A stretch of 64,000 bases of DNA from Orobanche coerulescens (taxonomy: Eukaryota; Streptophyta; Magnoliopsida; Lamiales; Orobanchaceae), in assembly GCA_033398695.1 (NCBI GenBank), contig CM065817.1, positions 65,088,001 to 65,152,000 of the forward strand, written 5' to 3'. The notes beneath the pieces were generated by a model. That model worked only from the letters and a program-made list of their open reading frames with translations, was not told the DNA's origin and searched no databases. This document shows positions 26,479-44,860 of the stretch, in pieces. Made by a program: the position numbers and the translations under genes. How positions within the stretch are numbered: position 1 is the first letter of the stretch; each line of letters begins with the position of its first letter.

Positions 26479-29125
26479 GCCCTGCAGACGGGATTTTGGC
26501 CATTTTTCTCCTTCTTCTCCTTCTCTTCCGCGGCTGAGGGTGTTCTTATCATGGAGCCATGTTGTTTAACAACAAATCCATGAAGTTCTTGAGGTTATAT
26601 CATTGATCAATCATCCGTTATCATCCTTTGATCCAGCGAATCAAGGTAATCTTCCTTAGAACCCTAAATTCTTGAATTTGGGGGTTTTTGCATTTTTGTC
26701 CGATTCGTTCCGTATTGTTGATTAATTCATGATGTGTATGATTAATCTTGATAGTATTCTTGTGTTTAACATCATTTAATCCATTGTTCTTCGTCGAATC
26801 GAAGTATATTTCTTGATTTCCTTCGAATCAACTTTTTGAGGGATTTGTTCTCGATCTCGTTTTCCATCCATTTTGATGGATCGATTGTGGTTAAATGATG
26901 TTGTTAAACATATTCTATGGATTGTATATCCATATTTCAACTTGGAATTCCGTTTTCGTGTTTTGTCGGGACGAATCGTGTTCTTGACCGTTTTGGGGAA
27001 AACACTTGAACTTTCGTCGTTCGTTATTTGAATTCAACGGCTTTGAGTCATGCTAGGGAATTCATTTTCATTGTTGTTATTGTCCTCTGTAGTTTATTAT
27101 CGCGAGTTGGCATTCGGTGGAGTCGGCGGGTTCGTAGTCGGTTCGTGCCAACCTACTCCGGTCGATTCTCCGCGTTGTGGTTGTTCAAGGCAAGTACCTT
27201 GTCCATACTATTCTTGTTTTGTGGATATGATAATTGGTGATCATCTTGGTGTGTTTGTTTATTTGTTTGAAATGAGTTTTCAAAGGATTCGGCTAGCCTC
27301 GTTAAAGGCTCACTTTCAAAACGCGTGTGTTTTGTAAATTGTGTGGGTTGTAAGTGACTACGTGAATCCTTTGGATATATTTGGTGTTGATGTTGCGCTT
27401 GATAATGCGTGTGTACGTATATTGCTTATTTCCGTCGCGTTATGGTTGACGTGCGTGTTGTTATTTATTCGTGTGGTCGTGGACTGACGGATGAATTATG
27501 TGAATTGGTGTATTGATTTGATAATTGTTACGACGATGACTGTGTACTTGATGTTTGTGACAATGTGAATACTTGTTGTGAGAGACGTCATATCCGGGAG
27601 CCTCTGAGGGCGGGGCGTGCGATCTCCGGCCTGGTGTACGCTGCAATGTGCGGCTCCATATGGTTGATAAACGCCGGTGTTTACCTGATGCGCGTGCAAG
27701 GGGCGGCTCTTATGGGAATGACGTCGGTGCGGTGGACACGGACAATGTGCGGCTGACATGTGGAGTGAACGCCGGTGCACAGGCGTTTCAGTGGAGGCGC
27801 CTGGCAGGCTTATTGGTAACGGATATTTGAGTGTTTAGCTAAGACCCCGTTACCGAATGATTATCGTATTTCAAATTCTTTCAACTCTTTTCAAATGCTG
27901 GTCTCGATATAGACCGTGATTCATGTTTTCTGAAAGTGCGTTTTAACTTGTTTTTAAAGGTTGGTATCAGGGTTAATTAACCAAGGACATTTGACGAGAT
28001 CTCCGAGGGTTAATTAATCAGGGGTCTTGAGCAGTTTTTGGGCGGACGGAAGGCTGTGTCCTTGATTATACTGTGTTGTCATTTTGTGTTTTGGGTCGAG
28101 GACCCCGTGTGATGTTGAGATGTTTGAACTCATGTTGATATTATTTGTATTGGGTCGAGGACCCCGTGTGATGTTGAGATGTTGTAATTTGTTTAGCTAG
28201 CTAGCTCGGGAGGGTCCTTCGAGGCCTCAGGTGGGATCTATGGTATTACCCTGTTCCCAAGGCGATGCATGTGTGTGATTTGTTCCGCTAGCCAGCTCGG
28301 GAGGGTCCTTCGAGGCCTCGAGTGGGATTTGTGGCTTCGTCCCGGTCCTAGGCGATGCGCGTGCGCGATTATGTTTTGTTGATTTTTATGTCCGTCGAGG
28401 ACACGTGATATTGGGCTCTGGCCCTGTGAATTTTTGTCGGTTTTTTATTTTCGAAAACAAAACCTTTGGGTTGTGACCCCTGTTGATTTTGGAAAGAGAA
28501 GGATTCAGAAATCCTAAATTGTTTTCTATTAAAACTCTCGATGTCATTTTAAACTGTTTTATAAATTGTTTCCCTTGATTTGTGACCTTTCGGTTTTGGA
28601 ATGTCTTACCAAACTTATGCCTCGGGAAGTGCTTTTCGTTATGTTTGGAACCTTTAGGATCCCTGGTTATTGTTATTCGTGGAATGTAAATTGTATGACT
28701 CGTATTTTGGCACTTGTACTTGCACTAGCAAAACAGTGGAGTTTTGCTAACCCCCGAGTATTCGGGGGGTGGATGTCTATTTTTGCATTCAGGTTTTGGA
28801 GCATAACACAGGGTTGGTACGAAGGATAATGAAATATGATCGATACTAATCCCATGAGGAACCGTACATTGTTTATCGGTTCAGTTGTACTTTATTTTCC
28901 GCTGCTATATTTTTCCCATTGTGCGGGTGTGGTTGCGTTTTGACCCCTGCGTGGGCATGAGTTGTATTTGAGTTGTATGCATTTATTGAAAGACCAAATC
29001 GGTCTACTGAGTCATCTTAGCCTTAAAGGCATGATTGAGTTGTTATATGTTGTTAGCAGCCTGGTAGATCCTTGAGGTAAGGTTCTACGACGTGTAATAT
29101 CCCTGAGCGGATTGGGGGTGTTACA

Positions 29126-29913
29126 GCAATAAACTCCCTTAACAACATATGCTATACCACTATTACACAAGTCACTCAAGAACACAACTGTGTTCTTCAC
29201 ACAAAAAGAAAATATTACAAAAAGTGGAAAAATACAAGATGAATGATGATGGATGATGTATCTAAGGGGTCTATTTATACACCTAAAGTCATCTAATAGC
29301 TCCAAAACTCCAGCATTATTACATTAGATCGGATCAATGCCAGTCATCCCCTCAATAATAGACCAAAAGTATAAAAAATTAGACAATGATAAAAAATCTG
29401 TCAAGAGTTACGGCCGTAACTTTGAGGAGTTACGACCGTAACTATGAGGACTTACGACCGTAACATTGAGGAGTTACGGCCGTAACATGACTACGGCTTT
29501 TTGCACATTAGTTGCTTTGTGAGTTAAGCCCGTAACTTTTAGATGTTACGCCCGTAAGGAGTTTCAGACTTCATTTTTAGCCCAGAATTTCTGACTTTTG
29601 CGTTTTTGCCCCAAATCTTCTTCGGATGATAACTTTTGATATATAACTCTGATTTTGAATCCGGAAAGACTGCCGAACTCGTCTCGGAAAGACCTACAAC
29701 ATGAATACATAAAAATTCACAAAGATAATATTTTATAAACATGTTATTTCTTGAGTAAATCAGTAATTCAATTCGATTAAGACTAGATTTACATCTTCAT
29801 CCGATAAAAATAAAATTATTAAAATTAAAAGCAAAAACGAGTAGACTAGCTCAATTATGGGTGAAATATATCGATACAAACTATGGATAAGTATATAAAA
29901 TTAACACTTATCA
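29126..29913 (-). repeat. Element F 3' LTR (part, U3)
   Basis: Matches 43617-44434 of the 5' LTR. The remainder lies beyond element B and is out of the window. It contains TATA (complement of 29272-29279) and the palindrome array at about 29406-29490. The LTR start TGATAAGTG is at 29913 on the minus strand. Confidence 0.9.
29406..29570. repeat. TTACGGCCGTAA palindrome array, F 3' LTR
   Basis: Four to five copies of gTTACGGCCGTAAc or one-base variants lie at about 20-bp spacing, plus related ttacgcccgtaa words further on. On the minus strand the array lies upstream of the TATA box. The 5' LTR copy (43895-44070) has five clean units. Confidence 0.9.
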
Positions 29914-29946
29914 CACCCCCAAACTTGAATTCTTGCTAGTCCCGAG
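29914..29946 (-). promoter_or_regulatory. Polypurine tract of element F
   Basis: On the minus strand CAAGTTTGGGGGTG abuts the LTR start TGATAAG. It is preceded by ctcggga at fixed spacing. This is the usual form of purine tract in plant tRNA-Asp-primed elements. Confidence 0.85.
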
Positions 29947-30380
29947 CAAGACTCTTTATTATTCACACTCCAAAAATAAAAATAAGACATAAATAATAAT
30001 ACACACATAAATTAAGAAAAAAAATATAAAAGGAGAAAAGGAGATCAAAATGCCATTAATACACAACAACCAGCTTTATATAGTAGATAGAAATGAATCA
30101 AGATTCAAAATAAATCTACTAATGATTTTGAAGTTAAAACACTGTTTTATTTTGTAATTTCAAAATGCAAGGTTTTCCCCCAAAAGGTTGATTATTTCTT
30201 TCCCACTCGTGACACACACAACTCCCTTTAATGCTTGCTCTCGATCACTCGTTTATTTTTCGACTCAATATGAAGAAGAATTTCATTGGCGTCATCAAAT
30301 ATTGTGATTTTTCACGAAATTGTGTGTATTGAAATTCAGCCGCTAATTAATTCAGATCTGCTCATAAACTACATCCCTTA

Positions 30381-30677
30381 GTGATAGCTTTCACACCGTT
30401 ATTTGCTAACGTGTAGCTCTTTTCACCAACACAATTTCTATCTTTTTTTTAAGGTGATAGCTTTCACACTGTTATTTGCTAACGTGTACCTCTTTTCACC
30501 AACTTTTTTGTGAGACGGCATCTACGCACCAACAATGGTTAGTCCTTTATTTTTCGCAAAATTTTAGGATCCCCAAAATTAGGCAGTTGTTGCTTCTCAA
30601 CACTTCTCCTTTTTGTCATTTTTTTAGGTGATAGCTTTCACACCGTTATTTGCTAACGTGTAGCTCTTTTCACCAAT
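30381..30677. repeat. Three dispersed copies of a 47-50 bp hairpin repeat
   Basis: Copies start at 30381, 30454 and 30628. Each runs from gtgatagctttcacacc to ctcttttcacc and contains a stem formed by ACACCGTTA and TAACGTGT around a short loop; outer GGTGA/TCACC also pair. The copies are separated by T-rich spacers of variable length, so this is not a simple tandem array. Confidence 0.85.
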
Positions 30678-31126
30678 GACTCCTTTTTTTAGGTAATAGA
30701 ATTTTTGCAGAAAATCGTTTATTAGCTAAGCATGAAAAATCAAAAACTCCACAAATTAAGTAAATTTCAGTGCTATTTTTCAGCAACCGACTGATTCTTT
30801 TTTTCTCAAGGTAACGAATGACTCGATTTTATATGATAACTACAAGGCTTGGAAAGAGAGATTAAGGCTCAAAAATTTTGGAATATACAATTTTTTTACC
30901 AGTTAAAACGATTTTAGAAGCATGTATATAGCTAACTTATTGGTGTTATGGCCAGATCTAGAAATCTCATATATATATATATATACACTAAAAAAAATCG
31001 ATGCCAAATAATAAAAATAATCAAAACACACCACAAACTACATGAAAAATAACACAGTCATACGATTCAAAACAAAATAAACACCACAGTTCAAAAACAA
31101 ACAAAATAAACACAAAAGTTTTTAAA

Positions 31127-31159
31127 CACCCCCAAACTTGAAAATAAAACTGTCCCGAG
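31127..31159 (-). repeat. Internal second copy of F purine-tract module
   Basis: The 14-bp cacccccaaacttg at 31127-31140 and tcccgag at 31153-31159 repeat the terminal module at 29914-29946 with the same 26-bp spacing. It could be a relic of an earlier element end or a central purine tract. Confidence 0.75.
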
Positions 31160-31580
31160 TTTTTAAAAAAAAAAATAAAAATAGAAAAAATAAAATAAAT
31201 AAAAATAAAAAATAAAATAAAAGGCAATTGAGAAAAGCAGAATACTCCCTGTTTATGAAAATTGATGCTTGAGCTAACGCCTTTTAGAATCTGCAAGAGA
31301 ATAAATATACGAGGCACACAACAAAAGAAAATAAAATATACTCGGAAGTATAACATAATTTTTAAGATGCGCTTCAAGAAAGTCCGAAGAGTCGCCTTAC
31401 GCTGCCATCAATGCTTTTATAAAAAACAAACAATAAAAATTACAGCAATAAAATAACAATACATAAATCACGAATAGATGCGCGTCAAGAGATCAAGAAG
31501 AAACTCCTTAAGCTGCCATCATTTAGCACGATTTTTACACACAACAGAAAATAAAAATACAAGAGGTCCGACATGGGTTA

Positions 31581-32237
31581 TCAAAGGGAGAGGAATGAAT
31601 CCACTTTTCGTTTTCTCACGGTAAAATCTTCCATCCAGACAATTTTAGCTAGAGCTGGATCTGGTTGAGGAACAAATTCATTGAGTTTTTTGATTAGTTC
31701 TTATGGTGTTGTTGCAACGACTATGATTCGTTTAGCACGCTCGGAAATAAAACCCTTTTCAGCAGAGTAATCGATGAAAGATAGTAAACCATCAAAGAAA
31801 CCATTGACATTAAGCAGACCTATTGGTTTTTGATGAACATTTAGCTGGGCTCTGGTAACCACATGAAAAAGTTCCTCAAGGGTGCCAAAACCACCGGGAA
31901 GGGTGATAAAGGCGCCAGAATTATTTATCATGTGAGCTTTGCGATCTTCCATATTTACAGATCTAAACTCATCTCCAATAGTTGCCCCGGTGATTTTACT
32001 TTCAGCTAGAGGTTTTGAAATTATTCCCAACACTCTTACTCCTTCCATATAGGCAGAAGCAGCAGCTCGTCCCATTAATCCTAGACTTCCTCCTCCGTAA
32101 ACTACATGAATGCATTTTTCTCCTAAGGTACGACCCAAGTTGTGGGCTGCTTCAGTAAAGCATGCCTCTTTTCCATAACTAGCTCCACCAAAAATGCAGA
32201 CTGTGCTAAATTTTTTTGTGGAAGATGATGATTCCAT
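31581..32237 (-). pseudogene. LOG-like: LOG-family cytokinin riboside 5'-monophosphate phosphoribohydrolase, one in-frame stop
   Basis: LOG enzymes release active cytokinin bases from their riboside monophosphates in one step in the cytosol or nucleus. The frame opens at ATG 32237 and reads 178 codons to TAA at 31701-31703. The same frame then stays open for 39 more codons to TGA at 31581-31583, giving about 217 codons, the usual LOG length. Motifs: GGGSLGLMG at residues 48-56, DRKAHM at 98-103, PGGFGTLEE at 114-122, HQKPIGLLNVNGFFDGLLSF at 135-154. The conserved Arg of RKA and the Glu of the PGGxGTxxE motif are both kept. No intron interrupts the frame, whereas most plant LOG genes have several, so a retrocopy or cDNA capture is inferred. 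It lies inside element F in the same orientation, 345 bp after the zinc-finger ORF. A TATAAATA lies 80 bp upstream. The stop removes the C-terminal helix region; whether the short form works is unknown. Confidence 0.88.
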
Positions 32238-32317
32238 TTTTGAAAAGAAATTTTATAGCGAGAAAAAAGAGAAAAGTACAAGTTTGAGGGATGAATAAAA
32301 GAAACAAGCACAATGCT

Positions 32318-32325
32318 TATTTATA
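32318..32325 (-). promoter_or_regulatory. TATA-like box upstream of LOG-like gene
   Basis: TATAAATA on the minus strand, 80 bp before the LOG-like ATG. It suggests the gene may have its own promoter inside F rather than depending on LTR read-through. In AT-rich sequence a chance match is possible. Confidence 0.45.
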
Positions 32326-32582
32326 GAAAAAAAATGAGGTAAAATTGTTTAACAAGTTTGTGATTGTGTTCATTGCGCTTCAACTACTCAATAGAATAAT
32401 GAATGCATTTATTGCGTATCACCTTTCTTTATTCAAAAAATCTCACCACACGAAAAAAATAAATGATACTCACGTGTATGTACAGTATTTGTGATTGTGG
32501 CTCACATCTTTCTCTGATTTTACGTTCAGAAACGGCCTAAACGCCTTCTATGAGTCGGGAAGAAGCTTCCCATCCAATTTTC

Positions 32583-32918
32583 TTACAAATTGGCAAAAGG
32601 GTCTTTTAACGTCAGATTCCCAAGACGTTGTTCATATTCTGGTTTGAATTTATTCCACAAACATCGAATTCCGTAATGTACGAGTCTACTAGGATGCGTG
32701 TCAAGAGAAATTTCGATATTATCTAAATTCTCTTTATTCAGACCATCCTTAATGAACTGAATTTTATCTTCTCTGTTTGTAGATGGAATTCCTAAAGATC
32801 GACATTTTAAATTACAGTTCCATCTAGCACATTTATAGCAAACGACTATTATCTTTGCTCGCCGTTTCTTGGCATATGAACTTTTTCCTAGCCCTGGTAA
32901 AAATCTAGTAGGTTTTTC
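32583..32918 (-). pseudogene. Carlavirus NABP-like zinc-finger ORF of element F, C-terminal part
   Basis: 111 sense codons ending at TAA 32583-32585. It starts at the junction with element G. A basic motif GKSSYAKKRRAK (32853-32888) is followed directly by a four-cysteine cluster with C-2-C-4-C-3-C spacing (32802-32840). This order is the hallmark of the 3'-proximal cysteine-rich nucleic-acid-binding protein of carlaviruses, known in the family as RNA-binding proteins and silencing modulators. The loop between the cysteine pairs is shorter than in those viruses, and the tail after the finger is longer. The remaining N-terminal part is at 42351-42529. Similarity was judged by eye. Alternatives are an unrelated plant zinc finger or an element-specific gag-like protein. 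Confidence 0.6.
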
Positions 32919-35166
32919 TATAACACCCCGAGATATTCGGAGTATATTACAGCGCCGTGGACCCCTACATGGGACCCACCAGGCTATAACAAGAAAACAC
33001 CACTCGACTAACCATCTCGGTTAGCGAGGACACACATTTAAATAATATGACATATAAAGATACGCCCGGAGCAACCGGCGAAATAAACATCATCCGACAA
33101 TGTGACAATTTAAAGTAATACAATACGGAGTTTGAAATGAAAAGCCTAAGTACTCGCGAGTACTATCTATGAGTTTATAACTGTGGGAACAACCATATCG
33201 AAATGGACAAAAGAAATAAGAAGACCCAAATGCACATGTCAACGACCCTGGCCGACATCCTCGTACTGTCCCGGTGCTCGCTCGTCCGGATAATCATAAC
33301 CTGAAATCCATAACAAGAATTTCCCCAAAATGGGTCCCCAAAGGGGTTAGAAATTACGCTAGTACAAGTTATCAAGGCAAACCAATCGCTTACACATTTC
33401 ATAGTACAATGCACCAAAGTCAATTTCAAAAGTCAAAACCAGACATGTCTTTTCCGGAAACAAACAGTCAAACAATTTGCCTTGGGAACAGGGTAATACC
33501 ATTGATCCTGCCCGAGGCCTCTAAGGACCCTCCTGAGCTGGCCATATCGTAAAACAAAACACGCACATGCATCGCCTTGGGAACAGGGTAATACCATTGA
33601 TCCCGCCCAAGGCCTCTAAGGACCCTCCCGAGCTGGCTAGCTAAACAAACTCATGAATCCAGGACTCAACCCTTTGGACTCCCTCCGTGATCCCGTCGGA
33701 CCATCCCGAGGTGAGCAAATCACACACAAAATACATTACCATTCCATGTTAAGCATAAAGGTTTCCAAAAATACTTGCCTTGAATAATTGGTGACGCAAC
33801 GAACGGAAAGAATAATCATCGACGAACGCTAGGAATCAACGAGATCGAACCTATAGATTCGAAGAACAAAATCACAACCAACTCTAGATGAATACGGAAA
33901 TGGAATACCCCCGTAAACCCGCCTACGATTCATGTATATTCGTACAAAAATAACAACGAGGGCGGACCACAACCAAACCCTCTCGATTTCGCAAAACCAT
34001 GAAAATATACCATGAATCCGTAGGAAAACTAATAATATTGACAAGATTAACCATATTCATCATGAATCCACCAACAAAACGGAACGAATCAGACGAAAAT
34101 CCCAAAACCCCCAATTTATCTAAAAGTAGGGTTCTAAGAGATTTTACCTTGGATTAGGATGAAAGATTCGTGTTGATGTTGTTATAATACACCAAGAACT
34201 CAAGGAAGATGTTGGATGAGATGATTGGAAGAAGAAATCGCCAAGAATCGCCCAAAATCGCCAAAGGAGCTCTAAGCCGCGGGGAAGAGAAGAAATGAAC
34301 ATAATACGTTCATCTAGGTCAACTCCCTGGTTTATATAGCCAGGGAGTGTTAGCGCGCGCTAATCCTCAAGGTTAGCATGCGCTAATGGGATAAAACTAC
34401 AGACCATACAGTTAGCGTCCCAGTCCAGTAGCCAGATTTCTGGCCGTTAGCGTGCGCTACTCGAAACGTAGTGTGCGCTAATAATCTCTCGGTAGCGCGC
34501 GCTATCGACCAATAGCGTGTGCTACCTGGACATCAGCCGAGTCCAGAAGCAACTGTCCAGTACACACCTGATCCAGTTAGCGCGCGCTATCCACCAAACG
34601 TAGCGTGCGCTAAAGTGTATCGGTAGCACGCGCTATCGACCAATAACGTGCGCTACCTGGGCAGCAGATTGAGTCCAGTAGCAAACTAGCCTATACTGGA
34701 CACTCACGCTAGCGCACGCTACCGGGAATCTCAGCGTGCGCTAGCCCCCGACATTAGCGTGCGCTAGACTACGTAGCGTATGCTAATTCGCCAGTCCAGG
34801 GGGCTGGAAACAGCACTGCCACTCCCAGGGCTTGCTCTCTAGCGCGTGCTACGAAGCAGTCGTAGCGTGCGCTACTAAGTGACCCCTAGCGTGCGCTATG
34901 CAGAAAAGATAGCGTGCGCTAGGTACGAAATATAAACGGTCCAAACCACCGAAATACGAACGAAACGTCAAACGGAACATCTCAAGATGCATCAAAACAT
35001 AGAATGGATCCACGGCAACCCCGAAACAGCAGTTCCGCACAACAATAATGAGAATCAGATCAATAGATGACGGGAAAGATACACTGTAAGGTACACGAGG
35101 GTCACTACGACTGAGAAATACACCGAAAAAGAAAATACAAGGGGAAAGAAAAATGCGGATATTACA
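32919..35166 (-). repeat. Element G 3' LTR
   Basis: 2,248 bp. The plus-strand start is TATAACACC where the partner LTR has TGTAACACC, and the end is GATATTACA. Minus-strand TATA (TATATAAA) is the complement of about 34330-34338. The palindrome array occupies 34350-34922 and a candidate splice donor lies at 34147/34148. A 70-bp module is duplicated at about 33478 and 33571. Confidence 0.9.
34350..34922. repeat. TAGCGYRCGCTA palindrome array in G 3' LTR
   Basis: More than fifteen copies of tagcgcgcgcta / tagcgtgcgcta and variants over 570 bp, upstream of the minus-strand TATA box and separated from it by about 15 bp. The word is the same as in E, although the LTR backbones differ. The second copy is at 41540-42107 in the 5' LTR. 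Confidence 0.95.
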
Positions 35167-35179
35167 TTCTACCCCTCTA
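35167..35179 (-). promoter_or_regulatory. Polypurine tract of element G
   Basis: On the minus strand TAGAGGGGTAGAA abuts the 3' LTR. It is preceded by ttcgggacgaaac, as in A, B and E. Confidence 0.85.
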
Positions 35180-35201
35180 AAAATAAGTTTCGTCCCGAAA
35201 C

Positions 35202-36341
35202 TTAAGAAACAAACAACTCAGGGTACCTAACACGCATGCTATCCTCGGTTTCCCAAGTTGCCTCCTCGACACCGTGCCTCGACCACTGCACCTTGACCAA
35301 AGGGATGATCTTACGCCTCAGTCGTTTCTCACAATGCTCTAAAATCTTCAAAGGACGCTCCTCAAAAGTAATATCCTCGACGACATCAATCTCACCATAA
35401 TTGATGACGTGACTAGGATCCGGGACATATTTCCTCAGTTGGGAAACATGAAAAATGCTATGAACATGACTCAGGGCCGGAGGTAACGCCAAACGGTATG
35501 CTAACCCACCGACTCGCTCGAGAATCTCGAAGGGTCCAATAAATCTCGGGCTCAACTTCCCCTTCTTCCCGAAACGGAAAACTCCTCTCGTCGGCGACAC
35601 TTTCAGCAAAACGTGGTCTCCCACCTCGAATTCTAAAGGTCGACGATGGACATCGGCGTATGACTTCTGTCGACTCTGGGCAGTCAACATCCATTCCCGA
35701 ATCAATTCTATCTTCCGCCTCGTCTCTAAAATGACATCCGGTTCGGTCCCGACCAAATCGGAAGCCTCATTCCAACAAATCGGCGATTGACAACGCCGCC
35801 CGTAGAGCGCCTCATACGGTGCCATTCGAATTGATGCGTGCAAACTATTGTTGTACGTGAATTCGATTAATGGCAAATGCTCCTCCCAGTCACTACTCCA
35901 ATCGAGAGCACAAGCACGCAACATATCCTCGAATGTCTGGATAGTGGGTTCCGACTGTCCATCTGACTGGGGATGAAAAGAGGTACTCAAACGCAAACAA
36001 GTACCCAACGCTTTATGCACCGCCTGCCAAAAGTGCGATACAAATAGGCCATCACGATCCAAAACAATAGACTTCGGAGTACCGTGAAGCCTCACAATCT
36101 GCGCGATAAACACACGAGCCAACTTCTCCGGGCCCCAAGTGTCCTTGATGCCCAGAAAATGTGCCGATTTGGTCAGACGATCAACAATCACCCATACCAT
36201 ATTCATGCCCGACCTCGATCTCGGCAAACTCGTAACGAAATTCATCGATATGTCTTCCCATTTCCATTCCGGAACGGGAAGTGACTGCAATAACCCAGCC
36301 GGTCGCTGATGCTCAATTTTGACCTGCTGACAAGTCAATCA
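35202..36341 (-). pseudogene. Integrase core and chromodomain of element G
   Basis: 378 codons open after a TGA at 36339-36341 that replaces the first finger cysteine (..AR*LTCQQVK). The first catalytic Asp is changed to Asn (ISMNFVTSLP, codon 36240-36242). The second Asp (VLDRDGLFVSHFW) and Glu (SDGQSEPTIQTFE) remain. The GPF motif and chromodomain (LRRKIIPLVKVQWS..EEATWE) are intact. Integrase joins cDNA to chromosomal DNA; with Asn at the first position it should be inactive. Confidence 0.88.
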
Positions 36342-37358
36342 TCTCGCTACAAACTGCGCGACTTCTTCCTTCATATCATTCCACCAGAAATTCCTCCTCA
36401 GGTCCTTGTACATCTTGCTCGAACCAGGATGAACGGAATAAGGTGTAGCATGGGCCTCACGCAGAATACTCTGTCTCAATTCTAAGTCGTTCAGTACACA
36501 AATCCGACTCTGGAATCTCAAAACACCATCCTCATGAATCACAAACCCAGGAGACTTTCCCTTAAGAACGTTCTCTCGGATTTGAGTAATCATCGGATCC
36601 TCTAACTGCTTCAGCTTAATTTCATCGATCAAAGACGACAAAATATCTAAAGCACAAAGTTGCCCGACAGCTCCAGGCAACAAAACCTCAACATCTAACT
36701 CGATCAAAGCCCGCCGAAGCTCAGACTGAGACGTAAGGACCTCAAGCGTTCGCAACGCAATCGGTTTCTGACTCAAGGCGTCGGCCACGACGTTCGCCTT
36801 GCCCAGATGATAAAGGATTTCGAGGTCATAATCCTTAATCAGCTCTAACCACCTCCTCTGCCTCATATTCAACTCCCGCTGAGTAAATATGTATTTCAGA
36901 CTTTTATGATCGGTAAAAATCTGACATGCAGATCCGAAAAGGTAGTGACGCCAAATCTTGAGCGCAAAAACAACTGCCGCTAACTCCAAATCATGAGTAG
37001 GGTAGTTCAGCTCATACGACCTCAACTGTCTCGACGCGTAGGCAATGGTCTTGCTGTGCTGCATCAATACGCACCCAAGACCCTGACCCGAAGCATCACT
37101 ATAAATCGCAAAACCCTCGTTGCCACATGGCAACGCCAAAACCGGGGCTGAGGTCAAACGCTTCTTCAGTTCCTCAAAACTCAACTGCCTCTCGTCATTC
37201 CAGACGAACTTCTCGGATTTCTGGAGCAACTGTGTAAGTGGCCGAGCTAATTTCGAGAAACCCTTGACGAACCTACGGTAGTAACCGGCCAAGCCCAAGA
37301 AACTACGGATCTCCTTCACATTCTTGGGCGGCGCCCAATCCAACACTGCCTCAATCTT
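36339..37358 (-). pseudogene. RNase H and integrase zinc-finger region of element G
   Basis: Open between TAG at 37359-37361 and TGA at 36339-36341. Contains the RT connection ([18 protein letters not shown]), RNase H blocks [42 protein letters not shown] and NVVADALSQ, and then the first half of the integrase finger ([15 protein letters not shown]). RNase H catalytic residues appear intact. Confidence 0.88.
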
Positions 37359-38035
37359 CTACGGATCCACACAAACCCCCTCGGCTGAAATCACGTGTCC
37401 TAAGAACATCACTTCCTTCAGCCAGAACTCACATTTCGAGAACTTCGCATAGAGTTGCTTGGTCCTCAAAATGTCTAACACTACTCGTAAATGATGGGCA
37501 TGCTCCTCCTCGTTCCTCGAATAAATAAGAATATCGTCAATGAAGACGACGACACACTTATCCAAATACTCGATAAAGACTTTATTCATCAACTGCATGA
37601 ACACCGTCGGCGCATTAGTTAACCCGAAAGGCATAACTACGAACTCATAATGTCCGTATCTCGTCCGAAAAGCTGTTTTCGGCACGTCGGACTCCCTCAC
37701 CCGAAGCTTATAGTACCCCGATTTCAAATCAATCTTCGAGAATACCGCAGCTCCCTGCAACTGATCGAACAAGTCATCAATACTCGGCAAAGGATACTTG
37801 TTCTTGATGGTCACTTGTTTAGTTCGCGATAGTCGATGCACAAACACAGTGAACCATCCTTCTTCCGAACGAACAAAACCGGTGCGCCCCAAGGCGAAGC
37901 ACTCGGTCAAATATAACCCGACTCAAGAAGCTCACTCAACTGCTTCTTCAGCTCGGCCATCTCTGAAGGTGCCATGCGATACGGCGCCTTCGAAATCGGA
38001 GACGCACTCGGCTCTAACTCTATAACAAACTCAAC
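37359..38035 (-). pseudogene. Reverse transcriptase of element G
   Basis: Blocks in order: [15 protein letters not shown], then TGA at 37907-37909 in place of an Arg codon, then [13 protein letters not shown] and DYRELNK, a one-base loss near 37815, then [35 protein letters not shown] and the catalytic FIDDILIYS. From 37359 to about 37815 the frame is open. The polymerase cannot be made as one chain. Confidence 0.88.
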
Positions 38036-38836
38036 CTAATGATCCGGTGGCAATCCCGGTAACTCGTCAGGAAATACATCAGGAAACTCACTAACGACTG
38101 GAATCGACGAAAGCTCGACTCCACCACCCTCCGCCTTCAAGGCGTAGCACCAATAACCAGTACACCCCTTTCGCAAGAGTCTCATCGCCTTCAAGGCGTT
38201 AATAACTAACTTCTGGTTTCCCCTCTTTCGCCCCGCGAAAGAGTGCTCGGTGCCGTCCTCGGCTAACATAGTGATGATCCTCATGCGGTAGTTCATGATT
38301 GCACCATGGCGCTCGAGCCAATCATCCCCGAGAATCAAATCCTCACCCTTAATACCCACAACAATAAGATTAGAGGGCCAGACCCTCTCACAAATAAACA
38401 CAGAACAGTCCCGGACCTCTCGATCACCGAAAATTCTATCACCGTTAGGAAGTTTAATGATGAAAGGCTCGCAAGGTGACAAGCAGTCGAGACTCAAACG
38501 GCGTACACACTCTAGAGAAATGAATGAATGCGTAGCACCCGAATTAAAAAGCACACTGACAGGATGGGAATGAATATGAACGGTACCTGTCGCCACAGTA
38601 GCTGCTGGGTCATCGGCCCTCCTCATCTCATAGATACGCGGATGGGCAGAGCCGACATTGGAAGCTCCTCCCCTAGCGGGCTGACCCCGACCCCGACCCC
38701 TACCTCGGCCGGCACTCGGTGGAGGCGGCGGAGCAAATGAGCCCTGGTTCACACTCGGCTCCATAGGTGTTGGGTAAGAAGGACGGGCGCCGCGAAGCCG
38801 TCTGAACTGATCACAAAAGAGGGCCTTGGGGCCCAA
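38036..38836 (-). pseudogene. Aspartic protease region of element G
   Basis: 266 codons between TAG at 38837-38839 and TAG at 38036-38038. A Gly/Arg/Pro-rich linker precedes the protease. The active site reads LFNSGATHSFI, with Asn (38543-38545) where retropepsins need Asp, so it is predicted dead. ILGDDWLERHGAI is the second conserved block. It continues to the RT linker FPDVFPDELPGLPP. Confidence 0.88.
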
Positions 38837-39842
38837 CTATCCACAAGTATGACAAGTAAACTTCGGATGAGGACACTGCCGGTTCCTATGGCCCTGCAGA
38901 CCACAGTTAAAGCATGTGGGTTCACGAGCGGAGGTTCCGGCGGTACCCCGAAAGCTCCCAGAGAAACGAGCCGAACCGTCCGTAGAAATATTTGCAGCCT
39001 GAGATTTCTGCTGGCCTCCACTCTTGGGACCAGAAAAATTTCCGACCGACTTCTGCTTCTTGCTCTCACGAGCCACATCACTAGCCGTCACCGACATATC
39101 ATAAGCGAGGGCCCTACTCTGATAATCCTTCAAAGTAGTGCAGACGAGTCCAGACATATAGTCCCGAATGGATAGTTTCATCCTCCTGGAAAAATGGAAA
39201 ATTTTGTCGCTCTCTTCGACAACTTGGGTCTTCACATAGCCCAACTCCTTGTTAAAATCGGCAATGGCTTGGGATACGGGAATATCCCAAGGTTGAGCAT
39301 CGTAGAAAGCATGGACTCGATCCTGTCTAACTGGCCACGGACAATATTCAGTCTCCATCAGCTCCTGAAATTCGGCCCACGAAGCAACATGATCTTTGGG
39401 CCCCACGGCCTCCCACCAATCCATAGCGTCCCCAGTGAGAAAGTACTGGGCAATAGGGACCTTACGGTATTCGGGACAGTTGGTGGCAACGAAGACCTTA
39501 GATATCTCCTTGATCCACCCCTCCCAGCCGATCGGGTCTGATGCTCCCGAAAACTGAGGAGGATGCATCTTAATGACATCTTGGAGCCAACGGTCTGCTC
39601 CGCCCCGATTAGCATGGGCCTGATCGGGGTTTTGAACTATTTGAGCTATCGCCGCCATTTAGTTTACCATTTGCTGCATAACGGCCGCAATACCAAGGTC
39701 GGCGCGCTCTTGAGAAGAAGCATGACTATGACGGTCGCCGGTACTGCCGGCTCCCGAAGAATGCGATGTGGCCGCCCCCACCGGATGCCCCACGTCCTCG
39801 GCCGTGTCCACGACCACGACCACGGTTTCCTCCAGCATCCAT
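38837..39842 (-). pseudogene. gag of element G
   Basis: The likely original start is ATG at 39842, opening an Arg/Gly-rich tract that then shifts frame. A further stop precedes ATG 39658, from which 273 codons are open. Retrotrans_gag motifs: FSGASDPIGWEGWIKEISKVF, DAMDWWEAVG, FQELMETEYCP. A perfect zinc knuckle CFNCGLQGHRNRQC and a second half-knuckle CHTCG end at the TAG. Gag would package the element RNA. Confidence 0.85.
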
Positions 39843-40090
39843 ACTGGTGTTAAGAGATAACAGAAGTATATCGAGGATGAGTAAGGGAGGAAAAAGCAAC
39901 TACGATGATAAGCAAAAGAGGGAGAATAACCACAGTTCAAGAAATGGAATACAGTACAAGAAAGTAAAGAATCGAGTAAGGAAACTTACGAACACTGGAA
40001 GTACTGAGATGCCGGCAGGGGTGTGACAATGTGTAAAACAAAACACGACTAGACCCAAATAACCGACAAGCCTAGGTATCCATAAACCTA

Positions 40091-40104
40091 GGGCTCCGAT
40101 ACCA
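40091..40104 (-). promoter_or_regulatory. Primer-binding site of element G (tRNA-iMet)
   Basis: Minus-strand TGGTATCGGAGCCC, five bases from the LTR end at 40110; the same variant site as element A. Confidence 0.88.
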
Positions 40105-40109
40105 TTTTC

Positions 40110-42350
40110 TGTAACACCCCGAGATATTCGGAGTATATTACAGCGCCGTGGACCCCTACATGGGACCCACCAGGCTATAACAAGAAAACACCACTCGACT
40201 AACCATCTCGGTTAGCGAGGACACACATTTAAATAATCTGACATATAAAGATACGCCCGGAGCAACCGGCGAAATAAACATCATCCGAGAATGTGACAAT
40301 ATAAAGTAATACAATACGGAGTTTGAAATGAAAAGACTAAGTACTAGCGAGTACTATCTATAAGTTTATAACTGTGGGAACAACCATATCGAAATGGAAA
40401 AAAGAAATAAGAAGACCCAAATGCACATGTCAACGACCTTGGCCAACATCCTCGTACTGTCCCGGTGCTCGCTCGTCCGGATAATCATAACCTGAAATCC
40501 ATAACAAGAATTTCCCCAAAACGGGTCCCCAAAGGGGTTAGCAATTACGCTAGTGCATGTAATCAAGGCAAATCAATCGCTTACACATTTCATAGTACAA
40601 TACACCAAAGTCAATTTCAAAAGTCTAAACCAGACATGTCTTTTCCGGAAACAAACAGTCAAACAATTTGCCTTGGGAACAGGGTAATACCATTGATCCC
40701 GCCCGAGGCCTCTAAGGACCCTCCCGAGCTGGCCATATCATAAAACAAAACACGCACATGCATCGCCTTGGGAATTAGGTAATACCATTGATCCCGCCCG
40801 AGGCCTCTAAGGACCCTCCTGAGCTGGCTAGCTAAACAAACTCATGAATCCAGGACTCAACCCTTTGGACTCCCTCCGTGATCTCGTCGGCCATCCCGAG
40901 GTGAGCAAATCACACACAAAATACATTACCATTCCACGTTAAGCATAAAGGTTTTCAAAAATACTTGCCTTGAATAATTGGTGACGCAACAAACGGAAAG
41001 AATAATCACCGACGAATGCTAGGAATCAATGGGATCGAACCTAACGATTCGAAGAACAAAATCACAACCAACTCTAGATGAATACGGAAATGGAATACCC
41101 CCATAAACCCGCCTACGATTCATGTATATTCGTACAAAAATAACAACGAGGGCGGACCACAAGCAAACCCTCTCGATTTCGCAAAACCATGAAATTATAC
41201 CATGAATCCGTAGGAAAACTAATAATATTGACAAGATTAACCATATTCATCATGAATCCACCAACAAAACGGAACGAATCGGACGAAAATCCCAAAACCC
41301 CCAATTCATCTAAAAGTAGGGTTCTAAGAGATTTTACCTTGGATTATGATGAAAGATTCGTGTTGATGTTGTTATAATACACCAAGAACTCAAGGAAGAT
41401 GTTGGATGAGATGATTGGAAGAAGAAATCGCCAAGAATCGCCCAAAATCGCCAAAGGAGCTCTAAGCCGCGGGGAGGAGAAGAAATGAACGTAATACGTT
41501 CATCTGGGTCAACTCCCTGGTTTATATAGCCAGGGAGTGTTAGCGCGCGCTAATCCTCAAGGTTAGCGTGCGCTAACGAGATAAAACTACAGGCCATACA
41601 GTTAGCGTCCCAGTTCAGTAGCCAGATTTCTGCCCGTTAGCGTGCGCTACTCGAAACGTTGTGTGCGCTAATAATCTCTCGGTAGCGCGTGCTATCGACC
41701 AATAGCGTGCGCTATCTGGACATCAGTCGAGTCCAGAAGCAACTGTCCAGTACACACATGATCCAGTTAGCGCGCGCTATCCACCAAACGTAGCGTGCGC
41801 TAAAGTGTATCGGTAGTGCGCGCTATCGACCAATAACGTGCGCTACCTGGGCAACAGATTGAGTCCAGTAGCAAAATGTCCTGTACTGGACACTCACGCT
41901 AGCGCACGCTACCGGGAATCTCAGCGTGCGCTAGCCCCCGACATTAGCATGCGCTAGACTACATAGCGTACGCTAATTCGCCGATCCGGCTGGAAAGCAG
42001 CCGCCACTCCTGTGGCTTGCTCTCTAGCGCACGCTTCTGGCGATCGTAGCGTGCGCTACTAAGTGACCCCTAGCGTGCGCTATGCAGAAAAGATAGCGTG
42101 CGCTAGGTACGAAATATAAACGGTCCAAAACACCGGAATACGAACGAAACGTCAAACGGAACATCTCAAGACGCATCAAAATATAAAATGGATCCACGGC
42201 AACCCCGAAACAGCGGTTCCGCACAACAATAACGAGAATCGGATCAATATATGACGGGAAAGATACACTGTAAGGTACACGAGGGTCACTACGACCGAGA
42301 AATACACCGAAAAAGAAAATACAAGGGGAAAGAAAAATGCGGATATTACA
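40110..42350 (-). repeat. Element G 5' LTR
   Basis: 2,241 bp, TGTAACACCC to GATATTACA on the plus strand. Highly similar to 32919-35166, with scattered transitions. The palindrome array is 41540-42107 and the splice-donor candidate is at 41337/41338. Confidence 0.9.
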
Positions 42351-42529
42351 ACTTCTGTGAATTCACCTGCTAGTCTCACTTTGGCTTCAATTATGAATCT
42401 AATGTCAAAAGGTATGCTTTTATTCATAAGCAACCTCATCCTTTCAAGACTTGTCTTGTAAATTTTTAAAATGACATTTTTGCTCAGAAAGGGAAATCTT
42501 TTTTCAATTTTATTCAAAGTTTCTTCCAT
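42351..42529 (-). pseudogene. Carlavirus NABP-like zinc-finger ORF of element F, N-terminal part
   Basis: 59 codons from ATG 42529 to the junction with element G, 245 bp inside F's 5' LTR. The part is helical and basic and has no cysteines, ending in ..EAKVRLAGEFTE. Its frame matches that of the downstream part at 32583-32918, with 58 whole codons before the 5-bp junction. The ORF of about 169 codons was therefore open before G inserted. An N-terminal helical region before a basic motif and Cys cluster also fits the carlavirus protein layout, though it is longer here. The start is chosen as the first ATG after the F leader. Confidence 0.6.
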
Positions 42530-42750
42530 GATAAAAAAAAAATAAAAAAATAAAATGAAAATAATTGAAGAAAATATCTACAAATATCAGTTGTTGTGGG
42601 AAACTAAAAATTCCAACTTTAGTAGTCACGGAGTACCGTTATCCGCCACTTGACCGGACAAACACAATTGAGTACTAAGTTACAACGTCGAGAAATTTGT
42701 ACCTATAAAAATAGTTTACAATGTAAGATTTCAAATATAACACTTATACT
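42530..42750 (-). mobile_element. Element F leader
   Basis: About 220 bp of AT-rich noncoding sequence between the primer site and the zinc-finger ORF start. It includes an A-rich run at about 42531-42560 on the plus strand. Nothing else recognisable. Confidence 0.6.
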
Positions 42751-42768
42751 TCCCCGGAAACGGCGCCA
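42751..42768 (-). promoter_or_regulatory. Primer-binding site of element F (tRNA-Asp type)
   Basis: The plus strand reads tccccggaaacggcgcca, one base different from the tRNA-Asp 3' end. It lies 6 bp from the 5' LTR. Confidence 0.85.
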
Positions 42769-42774
42769 AAAACT

Positions 42775-44434
42775 TGACACAGTCTTTAGTGTAACTATCG
42801 CAAGTGCATGATATCGTATCAAGTAGTAAGCGGACTTTTTCAGTCCGGTTTATCGATCCCATGAGGAAGTTTGGTTATTTGTTGAATTATACACTATTAG
42901 TCTATTTGTTATAGATATTTATATGATTGAAACACACAAATTAAGAGTTTTGTTTAACAATTGCAAAGAAAATGCAATAATAGTTCCAATATTCAAGGAA
43001 ATAAAAGATTGCACTATAATAGATTAATAAAAGATAAATTAAATAGTTGGGATTATAGACTTAGTTCATCATTAGTTATAGAAGATGTATAGAAGATTAT
43101 AAGATGAATTTACTTATTATGTTGTGTAGATTCGATTTTCCTTTAAAAGACGGTTTCTCTTTCGAACTATAAAACGCCCCTTATATATTGAATCAATCCA
43201 CTATATTTCTATATTGATTGGCTTCAATACATAGCATTAGGTTTTATGAAAATAACTCAAAGAACCATCCAAGGTCTAGAGGTATATTTCTATCCCCTAG
43301 AACAACTTAGAGTGAAGATCATTTGATCTAATCAAACATATTTTCTTTCAAAATATATGAAGACCATAAATATCGTCATTTATTGGCCAAATAAATAAAG
43401 ATTGTTAAAACAATGAAAATCACACACAATAATAAGTAATTCATAATATATCTTTATACAAACTTAAATAACATGACTAACCTTGTTTATAATCCCAACT
43501 AAGGTAACTTAGCCCATGAAGGGTTTACTAAACATAATACAAGCTTGAGTGATCATTATTAGTTGAAAAAGAGAAAGAATTGATCCTAACTCCCTTAGTA
43601 GATAATGGAGAAAGAAGCAATAAACTCCCTTAACAACATATGTTATACCACTATTACACAAGTCACTCAAGAACACAAGTGTGTTCTTCACACAAAAAGA
43701 AAATATTACAAAAAGTGGAAAAATATAAGATGAATGATGATGGATGATGGATCTAAGTGGTCTATTTATACACCTAAAGTCATCTAATAGCTCCCAAACT
43801 CCAGCATTATTACATTAGATCGGATCAATGCCAGCCATCCCCTCAATAATAGACCAAAAGTATAAAAAATTAGATAATGATCAAAAATCTGTCAAGGTTA
43901 CGGCCGTAACTTTGAGGAGTTACGGCCGTAACTATGAGGACTTACGGCCGTAACATTGAGGAGTTACGGCCGTAACATTGAGGAGTTACGTCCGTAACAT
44001 GGCTACGGCTTTTTGCACATTAGTTGCTTTATGAGTTACGCCCGTAACTTTTAGATGTTACGCCCGTAAGGAGTTTCAAACTTCATTCTTAGCCCAGAAT
44101 TTCTGACTTTTGCGTTTTTGCCCCAAATCTTCTTCGGATGATAACTTTTGATATATAACTCTGATTTTGAATCCGGAAAGACTGCCGAAATTGTCTCGGA
44201 AATCCCTACAACATGAATACATAAAAATTCACAAAGAGAATATTTTATAAACATGTTATTTCTTGAGTAAATCAGTAATTCAATCCGATTAAGACTAGAT
44301 TTACATCTTCATCCGATAAAAATAAAATTATTAAAAACTAATTAATTAAAAGCAAAAACGAGTAGACTAGCTCAATTATGGGTGAAATATATCGATACAA
44401 ACCATGGATAAGTGTATAAAATTGACACTTATCA
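42775..44434 (-). repeat. Element F 5' LTR
   Basis: 1,660 bp, plus-strand TGACACAG to CACTTATCA. Minus-strand TATA (TATAAATA) is the complement of 43763-43770. The palindrome array TTACGGCCGTAA (43895-44070) lies upstream of it. The part 43617-44434 matches the partner LTR 29126-29913. Confidence 0.9.
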
Positions 44435-44860
44435 ATCTGATCATGGTGGCGAATATCTTAGTGGAGAGTTTTTGGATTTCTTGGCACATGAGGGGATTAC
44501 TTCCCAGCTCACTGCACCTGGTACACCACAACAAAATGGTGTTGCTGAACGAAGGAATCATACTTTATTTGAGATGGTTAGATCAAAGATGAGTTATTCT
44601 AATTTGCCTATTTCATTTTGGGGATACGCCTTGGAAACAGCAGTGTACATTCTAAACTTGGTGCCTTCGAAATCAGTTCCAATAACACCCACAGAACTAT
44701 GGAATGGGCGCAAGCCCAGTATAGGACATGTTCGGAGTTGGGGTTCACCAGCACACGTGCTGGATAAGGAAGCTGATAAGTTAGCATCTCGTACAGAAGT
44801 ACGAGTGTTTGTAGGGAACGAAGGGTGGCTTATTCTACAGTCCTAAAGATCAGAAGGTCA
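44435..44860 (+). pseudogene. Ty1/copia integrase fragment (element H)
   Basis: Starts within the catalytic core at [12 protein letters not shown], which carries the second catalytic Asp, and continues to [13 protein letters not shown] with the catalytic Glu. This order and spacing is typical of copia integrases. The upstream half is beyond element F and out of the window. A frame break occurs near 44830. It shows H is the host of F. Confidence 0.85.

Follow-up and report, generated by a model that had tools for sequence, protein, structure and literature searches.

Can a retrotransposon carry a virus-like gene and a plant LOG gene as a lasting unit, or is such a combination a one-off capture? 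The question is raised by a 64,000-nucleotide stretch of the Orobanche coerulescens genome (contig CM065817.1, positions 65,088,001 to 65,152,000; hereafter the window), in which a repeat search, together with reading of the sequence, placed a long terminal repeat (LTR) retrotransposon, here named F, on the minus strand at 29126-44434. The LTRs (with TG..CA ends), the primer binding site (PBS) and the polypurine tract (PPT) reported by an initial annotation of this DNA were confirmed in this way, but its LTR length of about 800 bp was not: the 5' LTR has 1,660 bp, the 3' LTR is truncated at 29126, and other copies of F are bounded by complete LTRs of about 1.6 kb. The two open reading frames (ORFs) in element sense, a basic/Cys4 protein (ORF1, here C4) followed by LOG, were both identified by Pfam, but neither is intact in the window. 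F is a non-autonomous LTR retrotransposon, and its cassette recurs in very many copies; it is not a one-off capture.

A 1-kb piece from the 3' region of F was used to search the 3.65-Gb genome, and scoring of the best 40 of 4,720 candidates yielded 39 places in addition to the window, along with one 28-nt match. Twenty of these 39 loci were examined by tblastn and blastn. C4 and LOG were both present at near whole length in 10 of them (L012-L016, L019, L022, L023, L027 and L028), several having stops, frameshifts or a deletion, and L028 a rearranged LOG; LOG, whole or in part, occurred without a full C4 in six (L011, L017, L018, L024, L025 and L026, the L024 copy being interrupted by another insertion); and neither gene was found in four helper-type loci (L009, L010, L020 and L021). 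Complete-structure copies with the order LTR-C4-LOG-LTR were seen in L013, L014 and L019, and reading by eye revealed 5-bp target duplications in two of the three non-tandem loci (L014 and L019 but not L013; L022 is tandem).

The genes themselves, used as queries, led to the same pairing. The first look with C4 returned 11,350 candidates, of which the best 150 scored were all full length, at 94-100%, and free of stops in 146; with LOG there were 14,568, the best 150 scoring 94-100%, nearly all across residues 1-218, with stops in 29 by our own count. These lists, like that of the second C4 family below, were ranked by score, which favors intact copies. At least 13 of the scored LOG places adjoin scored C4 places (found by eye, with the distances checked), and when 20 of the 150 C4 places were examined, a whole LOG lay about 310 nt downstream in 16, the others having 583 of the 658 nt of LOG (L038), 69 nt of it (L046), or none in the stretch examined (L039 and L055). 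The exact 26-nt core of a short leader that precedes C4 has 3,135 occurrences genome-wide, and its backwards-read control has none; therefore, the recurrence is not a matter of chance. In Orobanche minor, C4 and LOG lie on neighboring locus tags (OROMI_020768/020769 and 009435/009434). The check suggested with the initial annotation, whether both ORFs recur in other copies, thus came out largely in favor: it held at the two-gene loci and around C4, but not at the loci that lacked a full C4 or both genes. Equal-sized ENA contigs were also considered as proof of co-location and were discarded, because two of the five coincidences (905 and 1161) were too short for both genes.

The pairing is repeated in a second, diverged C4 family. 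Its query, P0225, is 52% identical to the C4 of F and returned 10,584 candidates, the best 150 of which scored at 91-95%, with stops in 13 (own count). LOG adjoins this C4 in all four loci examined, one of which (L060) has only a broken LOG relic behind C4; a search of L060 for the leader was negative. In L061, L062 and L063 a LOG-like stretch aligned over 180-222 residues at 31-40%, and reversed queries gave nothing; the frames, measured from stop to stop, are open for 166 (L061), 225 (L062) and 224 (L063) codons and match PF03641 at 5e-20 to 1e-23. Upstream of C4, L060 also contains imperfect repeats of the type TGCCTCGTTAAAAACCTTGCTAGGAAAACCCA (1044-1567).

Two conserved proteins and a conserved leader

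By its sequence signature, C4 is a member of the betaflexivirus nucleic-acid-binding protein (NABP) family. The window ORF1 matched Carla_C4 (PF01623) with an E-value of 2.6e-5 and 24.5 bits, the cut-off being 20.9; P0001 and P0122-P0124 exceeded this value, while P0128 remained slightly under it (20.3). The initial annotation had called ORF1 a virus-like zinc-finger protein, and its homologues agree: at E <=0.01, 69 of 70 matched the curated model Viral_NABP (PF05515; best 1.1e-8) and 67 of 70 matched Carla_C4 (best 3.7e-8). An intact copy, P0122, retrieved 279 homologues, of which the 120 listed span 80-100% of the query, and a Xanthoceras C4 query retrieved 557. Among the matches listed, the named hosts of C4 are Orobanche, Xanthoceras, Acer, Populus and Rhamnella, all other matches coming from metagenome or short contigs, with the named homologues being 52-85% identical and all but one having a precomputed PF01623 match; the closest relatives of both LOG and C4 are in Orobanche minor, hederae and gracilis. 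The alignment consists of a basic stretch and then CxxCx4Cx3C. The predicted structure is a poor model (predicted local distance difference test, pLDDT, 65.5), and the top seven of its fold search were five viral proteins, presumably all from betaflexiviruses, one unnamed entry and one phage protein. The PDB, searched by sequence and by fold, offered nothing meaningful for C4, and no relatives were present in the viral contigs or the phage records searched.

The window LOG ORF matched PF03641 (Lysine_decarbox; E 1.3e-34), and its best solved relative is At2g37210 (E 1.2e-50). Of the characteristic motifs, PGGFGTLEE is retained in 20 and YGGGSLGLMG in 28 of 36 F-type copies. A LOG tree of 38 rows was built from 33 of 120 listed proteins, three source-genome copies and two Arabidopsis LOGs, with Lamiales host LOGs not included; in it the nesting of the Orobanche, Rehmannia and Paulownia sequences roughly follows that of the plants, with the Arabidopsis LOGs set apart from them by a branch of 0.57. 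Tandem LOG derivatives with common LTRs were observed in L017 (1-7262) and L018 (4244-9665); they have no C4 or just its end, and share a common LOG stop.

For the analysis of selection, variants were classed by the number of copies in which they occur, and random placement of the same mutations gave the comparison, each real copy in turn serving as background; the statistics ignore kinship among copies. The C4 of L035, a plant contig described below, differs from three F copies with nonsynonymous to synonymous rate ratios (dN/dS) of 0.32, 0.40 and 0.40. Among 10 C4 copies the differences at the three codon positions were 0.052, 0.045 and 0.086, and shared variants gave a ratio of 0.43, with 3% of simulations as low (10.5% for the worst reference). 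For LOG, a set of 17 copies gave 0.87 for single-copy variants and, minus four LOG-only tandem copies, 0.41 for shared ones (5.5% of simulations, worst reference 22%). In an enlarged set of 36 copies, for which 17 of the new ones were chosen through C4, variants in two or three copies had a ratio of 0.46, a value as low being reached in 0.7% of simulations (4% for the worst reference), and single-copy variants had one of 1.00. The control regions UTR3 and MID gave 1.30 and 1.40 for shared variants, and 0.85 and 0.80 for single ones. An earlier test on the majority letter per column had produced 0.55 for shared LOG and 0.34 for C4 variants, and the test on real copies gave weaker values. From the low ratio in shared and 1.00 in single-copy LOG variants, it therefore seems that LOG is under constraint in copies that go on to multiply and released from it once inserted. 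Overall, the evidence of selection is good for C4 and moderate for LOG; the proposed check for dN/dS below 1 held for the shared variants of both genes, with exceptions in some tests.

Conservation extends to the RNA outside the genes. L035 is a 3.3-kb contig with plant-type pol, in which C4 lies directly behind the integrase end; this plant retrotransposon contig was deposited under a Candidatus Nomurabacteria metagenome-assembled genome record (DAIEQH010000041.1). Its homology to F starts about 6 nt ahead of the leader, spans C4 and ends about 90 nt beyond the stop. The leader is identical at 31 of 31 nt between L035 and the window and has at most one mismatch in nine further source-genome loci that matched, and this identity holds although the synonymous divergence (dS) of C4 between L035 and F is 0.78-0.95. 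The exact leader core was found in none of the viral contigs. Three short hairpins are possible behind the C4 stop, one of them differing between L035 and F in two pairs, at both partners in each case. The paired-change score was reached in 14 of 500 shuffles, in a comparison of two lineages with the structure derived from the same sequences, and is thus modest evidence for compensating changes in a putative hairpin. An Rfam search of L035 and L019 gave no match.

Likely helpers, proposed mechanism and rival explanations

L010 and L021 have the same LTR as F and the last 1.2 kb of its 3' region. Pfam recognized reverse transcriptase (RVT_1), RNaseH, integrase (rve) and a PF20167 ORF in L010, and similar pol ORFs were seen by eye in L021; gag-pol elements of this type are likely the helpers of F. 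Two traits (the PBS and the PF20167 ORF) make Athila their presumed lineage, the PBS of F being presumably of the Athila/Tat type. In L042, L050, L053 and L056, and in L048 with an insertion, homology to F starts only at the leader; the 5' end ahead of it is of another kind, which bears a PBS and gave no blastn match to the LTR of F. This alternative 5' end is likely a second LTR family, although the single copy followed is cut before its 3' LTR.

On balance, we favor the reading that F is a non-autonomous element with a two-gene cassette that is probably moved in trans by Athila-type helpers, and in which working C4 and LOG favor copying. Athila-type gag-pol elements having the LTR and 3' end of F would probably mobilize a unit made of the conserved non-coding leader, C4 as a small basic zinc-finger protein, and LOG, and element RNAs coding for functional C4 and LOG would be copied more often. 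C4 would most likely bind element RNA or DNA and lower silencing or aid expression, and would be the env-position gene in an autonomous relative. In a cell expressing it, LOG may liberate active cytokinin or have a different nucleotide as its target, and this could favor dividing cells, by which new insertions would be inherited. The anti-silencing role of C4 is offered tentatively, as something less than an even chance, and an action of LOG through cytokinin is rather doubtful. Unlikely as a whole is the broader proposal that C4, retained at the env position by plant retrotransposons from several eudicot orders, is a viral-type silencing suppressor, which in Orobanche would have joined LOG in a cassette that switches LTR partners, shields element RNA and pushes host cell division.

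A number of observations weigh against the favored reading. The window LOG ends 40 codons early and the window C4 is frameshifted relative to an intact copy; with the stop in LOG and the split, frameshifted C4, neither gene is therefore intact in the window copy. Only 7 of 36 LOG copies are without a stop or deletion, insertions not being counted, and the ranking of the candidate lists enriches for open frames. Among the selection statistics, blind to kinship as they are, the single-copy variants of C4 also had a somewhat low ratio (0.68), shared variants of all 17 LOG copies gave 0.73 with 30% of simulations as low, and variants in at least four of the 36 LOG copies gave 0.62, again with 30%; the MID control of the 36-copy set was 1.08 for single variants and 0.73 and 7.47 for the shared classes. 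The viral fold search with the low-confidence model of C4 gave weak matches (best E 0.11, none at E <=0.001). Lastly, some elements (L011, L025, L017 and L018) retain LOG without C4.

One rival, which we consider somewhat improbable, is that C4 is the working gene while LOG works, if at all, by non-cytokinin means such as binding a nucleotide or disturbing nucleotide signals; the tie of LOG to hormone would then lie in its name alone. L062 and L063 keep an open LOG-like frame, but the YGGGxxGLMG motif and the arginine are gone and D replaces G in PGGxGT, where L061 retains G. The nucleotide motif and the arginine have recognized roles in LOG; with both lost, cytokinin activity is therefore doubtful in L062 and L063. 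Moreover, the C4 of L035 is followed by 983 nt with no LOG-like ORF, and selection is clearer for C4 than for LOG. However, the motif counts of the F-type copies are those expected of an enzyme source, and L011 and L025, which have gag and protease ahead of LOG, kept LOG and not C4.

If, instead, a fragment of a virus and the transcript of a host LOG had been caught in a single event and amplified as neutral cargo, one could understand the equal differences at the codon positions of 17 LOG copies (0.045, 0.045 and 0.043), the damage in 29 of 36 LOG copies, and the treatment of the extra domains of such elements as acquired in PMC9289625. Such passenger capture is nonetheless improbable, given the near-complete span of the listed C4 homologues, the open C4 in nearly all scored places, shared variants that lie below neutral while single-copy LOG variants are neutral, and the repetition of the pairing in the diverged family. 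It is more improbable still, to the point of being barely credible, that C4 was left behind by an endogenized betaflexivirus genome next to retrotransposons. The Pfam relationship and the five viral, presumably betaflexiviral, proteins among the seven best structural matches would agree with such an origin, but C4 sits between LTRs with a PBS and PPT, target duplications flank two of the three non-tandem copies, C4 stands behind an integrase ORF in L035, and the ORF lists of the copies read contain no replicase or coat ORF, although no dedicated search was made for these.

Anatomy of the window copy

The statement of the initial annotation that gag and pol are absent holds for F itself, as judged by Pfam, but not for its interior, which holds a nested Ty3 element that splits ORF1 (Table 1). 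This element has its own LTRs, gag, protease, reverse transcriptase-RNaseH and integrase, and is the only source of the gag-pol ORFs inside F; the 5-mers at its flanks, GAAGT and GAAAA, form an imperfect target duplication. Each of its LTRs contains a 94-nt unit twice (33462-33650 and 40653-40841), an inverted copy of which is found at 28188-28284. The divergence of the LTR pair of F is 0.034 (Kimura two-parameter distance) over 790 sites; the window copy is therefore fairly young, though dead. An origin of F as reverse-transcribed spliced RNA was considered and rejected, there being no convincing splice donor at the 5' junction. At the borders, a copia-type integrase-like ORF (44412-44846, plus strand, by eye) adjoins the 5' end of F, which seemingly was inserted into a Ty1/copia element, and an element starting with TGTAACACCCCC on the minus strand, at 29125 and below, truncates the 3' LTR.

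Table 1. Parts of element F and of its nested insertion, in order of transcription, with positions in the window
Feature	Position	Strand	Basis
5' LTR of F, TGATAAGTG...GTGTCA, 1,660 bp	42775..44434	-	repeat search, sequence; whole-LTR matches in other copies
Primer binding site TGGCGCCGTTTCCGGGGA	42751..42768	-	sequence
31-nt leader 5' of C4	42625..42655	-	identical in plant contig L035
ORF1 (C4, betaflexivirus NABP-like), first part, start 42529	42351..42529	-	uninterrupted in other copies
Nested Ty3 LTR element, not F's own, within C4	~32919..42350	-	ORFs, repeats, Pfam; gag-pol ORFs 35202-39658
C4 second part, basic/CxxCx4Cx3C stretch, frameshift near end	32583..32918	-	PF01623 E 2.6e-5
Conserved stretch past C4 stop, three putative hairpins	32466..32556	-	comparison with L035
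LOG frame, early TAA after codon 178 (open 32237-31701)	31581..32237	-	open in other copies
Polypurine tract AAGTTTGGGGGTG	29914..29926	-	sequence
3' LTR of F, truncated at 29126 by another element	29126..29913	-	repeat search, sequence

Relation to known systems

The extra genes of plant LTR retrotransposons are mostly without recognizable function; F has two cargo genes with recognizable relatives, kept together under constraint, and the C4 family was so far known, as far as our searches go, from RNA viruses. Self-defense of retrotransposons against silencing by virus-type proteins becomes testable, as do the exchange of C4 between viruses and retroelements, its direction, and an action of such elements on host hormone. 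Predicted LOG proteins of Orobanche fall into clusters as large as 328, in which transposon copies have probably been annotated as genes; judging from such sizes, the LOG annotations in Orobanche may for the most part represent transposon copies, and work on the cytokinin genes of parasites would then be misled. If the broader proposal is true, thousands of copies in a holoparasite could feed the hormone biology of parasitism.

Among the open-access papers listed, in several cases just the best-ranked few (5 of 23,900, 20 of 257 and 15 of 16), we found neither C4 in retrotransposons nor a stable C4-LOG pair, which is weak evidence of absence, and nothing usable on a carlavirus protein in cell proliferation. 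The terms lysine decarboxylase, cytokinin and carla have 0 occurrences in the main texts of PMC11963269, PMC7264820 and PMC11728184.

Compared with the betaflexivirus NABP (PF01623, PF05515), C4 has the same basic stretch followed by CxxCx4Cx3C, but is encoded by a retrotransposon, has about 182 residues and is set between conserved flanks. The Athila lineage with a 3' ORF in the env position resembles F in the LTR and 3' end common to L010 and L021, and in the place of C4 behind pol in L035; F differs from it in having no gag-pol, and the helper has the PF20167 ORF, not C4, in the env position. Steinbauerova and colleagues are said to have described, in the abstract of a 2011 paper, two Athila-like elements similar to LOGL4. 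Among other acquired domains, the m6A (N6-methyladenosine) demethylase type is also met in plant RNA viruses. Orchid Ty3/gypsy elements of two Phalaenopsis species carry such a domain, according to PMC9289625 (section 12); like F, they are a retrotransposon group with a gained domain, but the domain is another one and the gene is single. The same paper, citing Steinbauerova et al. 2011, describes a YgdH/LOG domain in Ty3/gypsy elements of Citrus and Populus, which, like F, hold a LOG-family domain inside plant Ty3 elements; unlike for F, that account, as far as available, includes no C4, pairing, selection test or conserved leader. The suggestion that F is an undescribed system must therefore be narrowed: PMC9289625 had already reported LOG within retrotransposons of this kind, and what our open-access searches did not find in print is the viral-type gene and its stable pairing with LOG.

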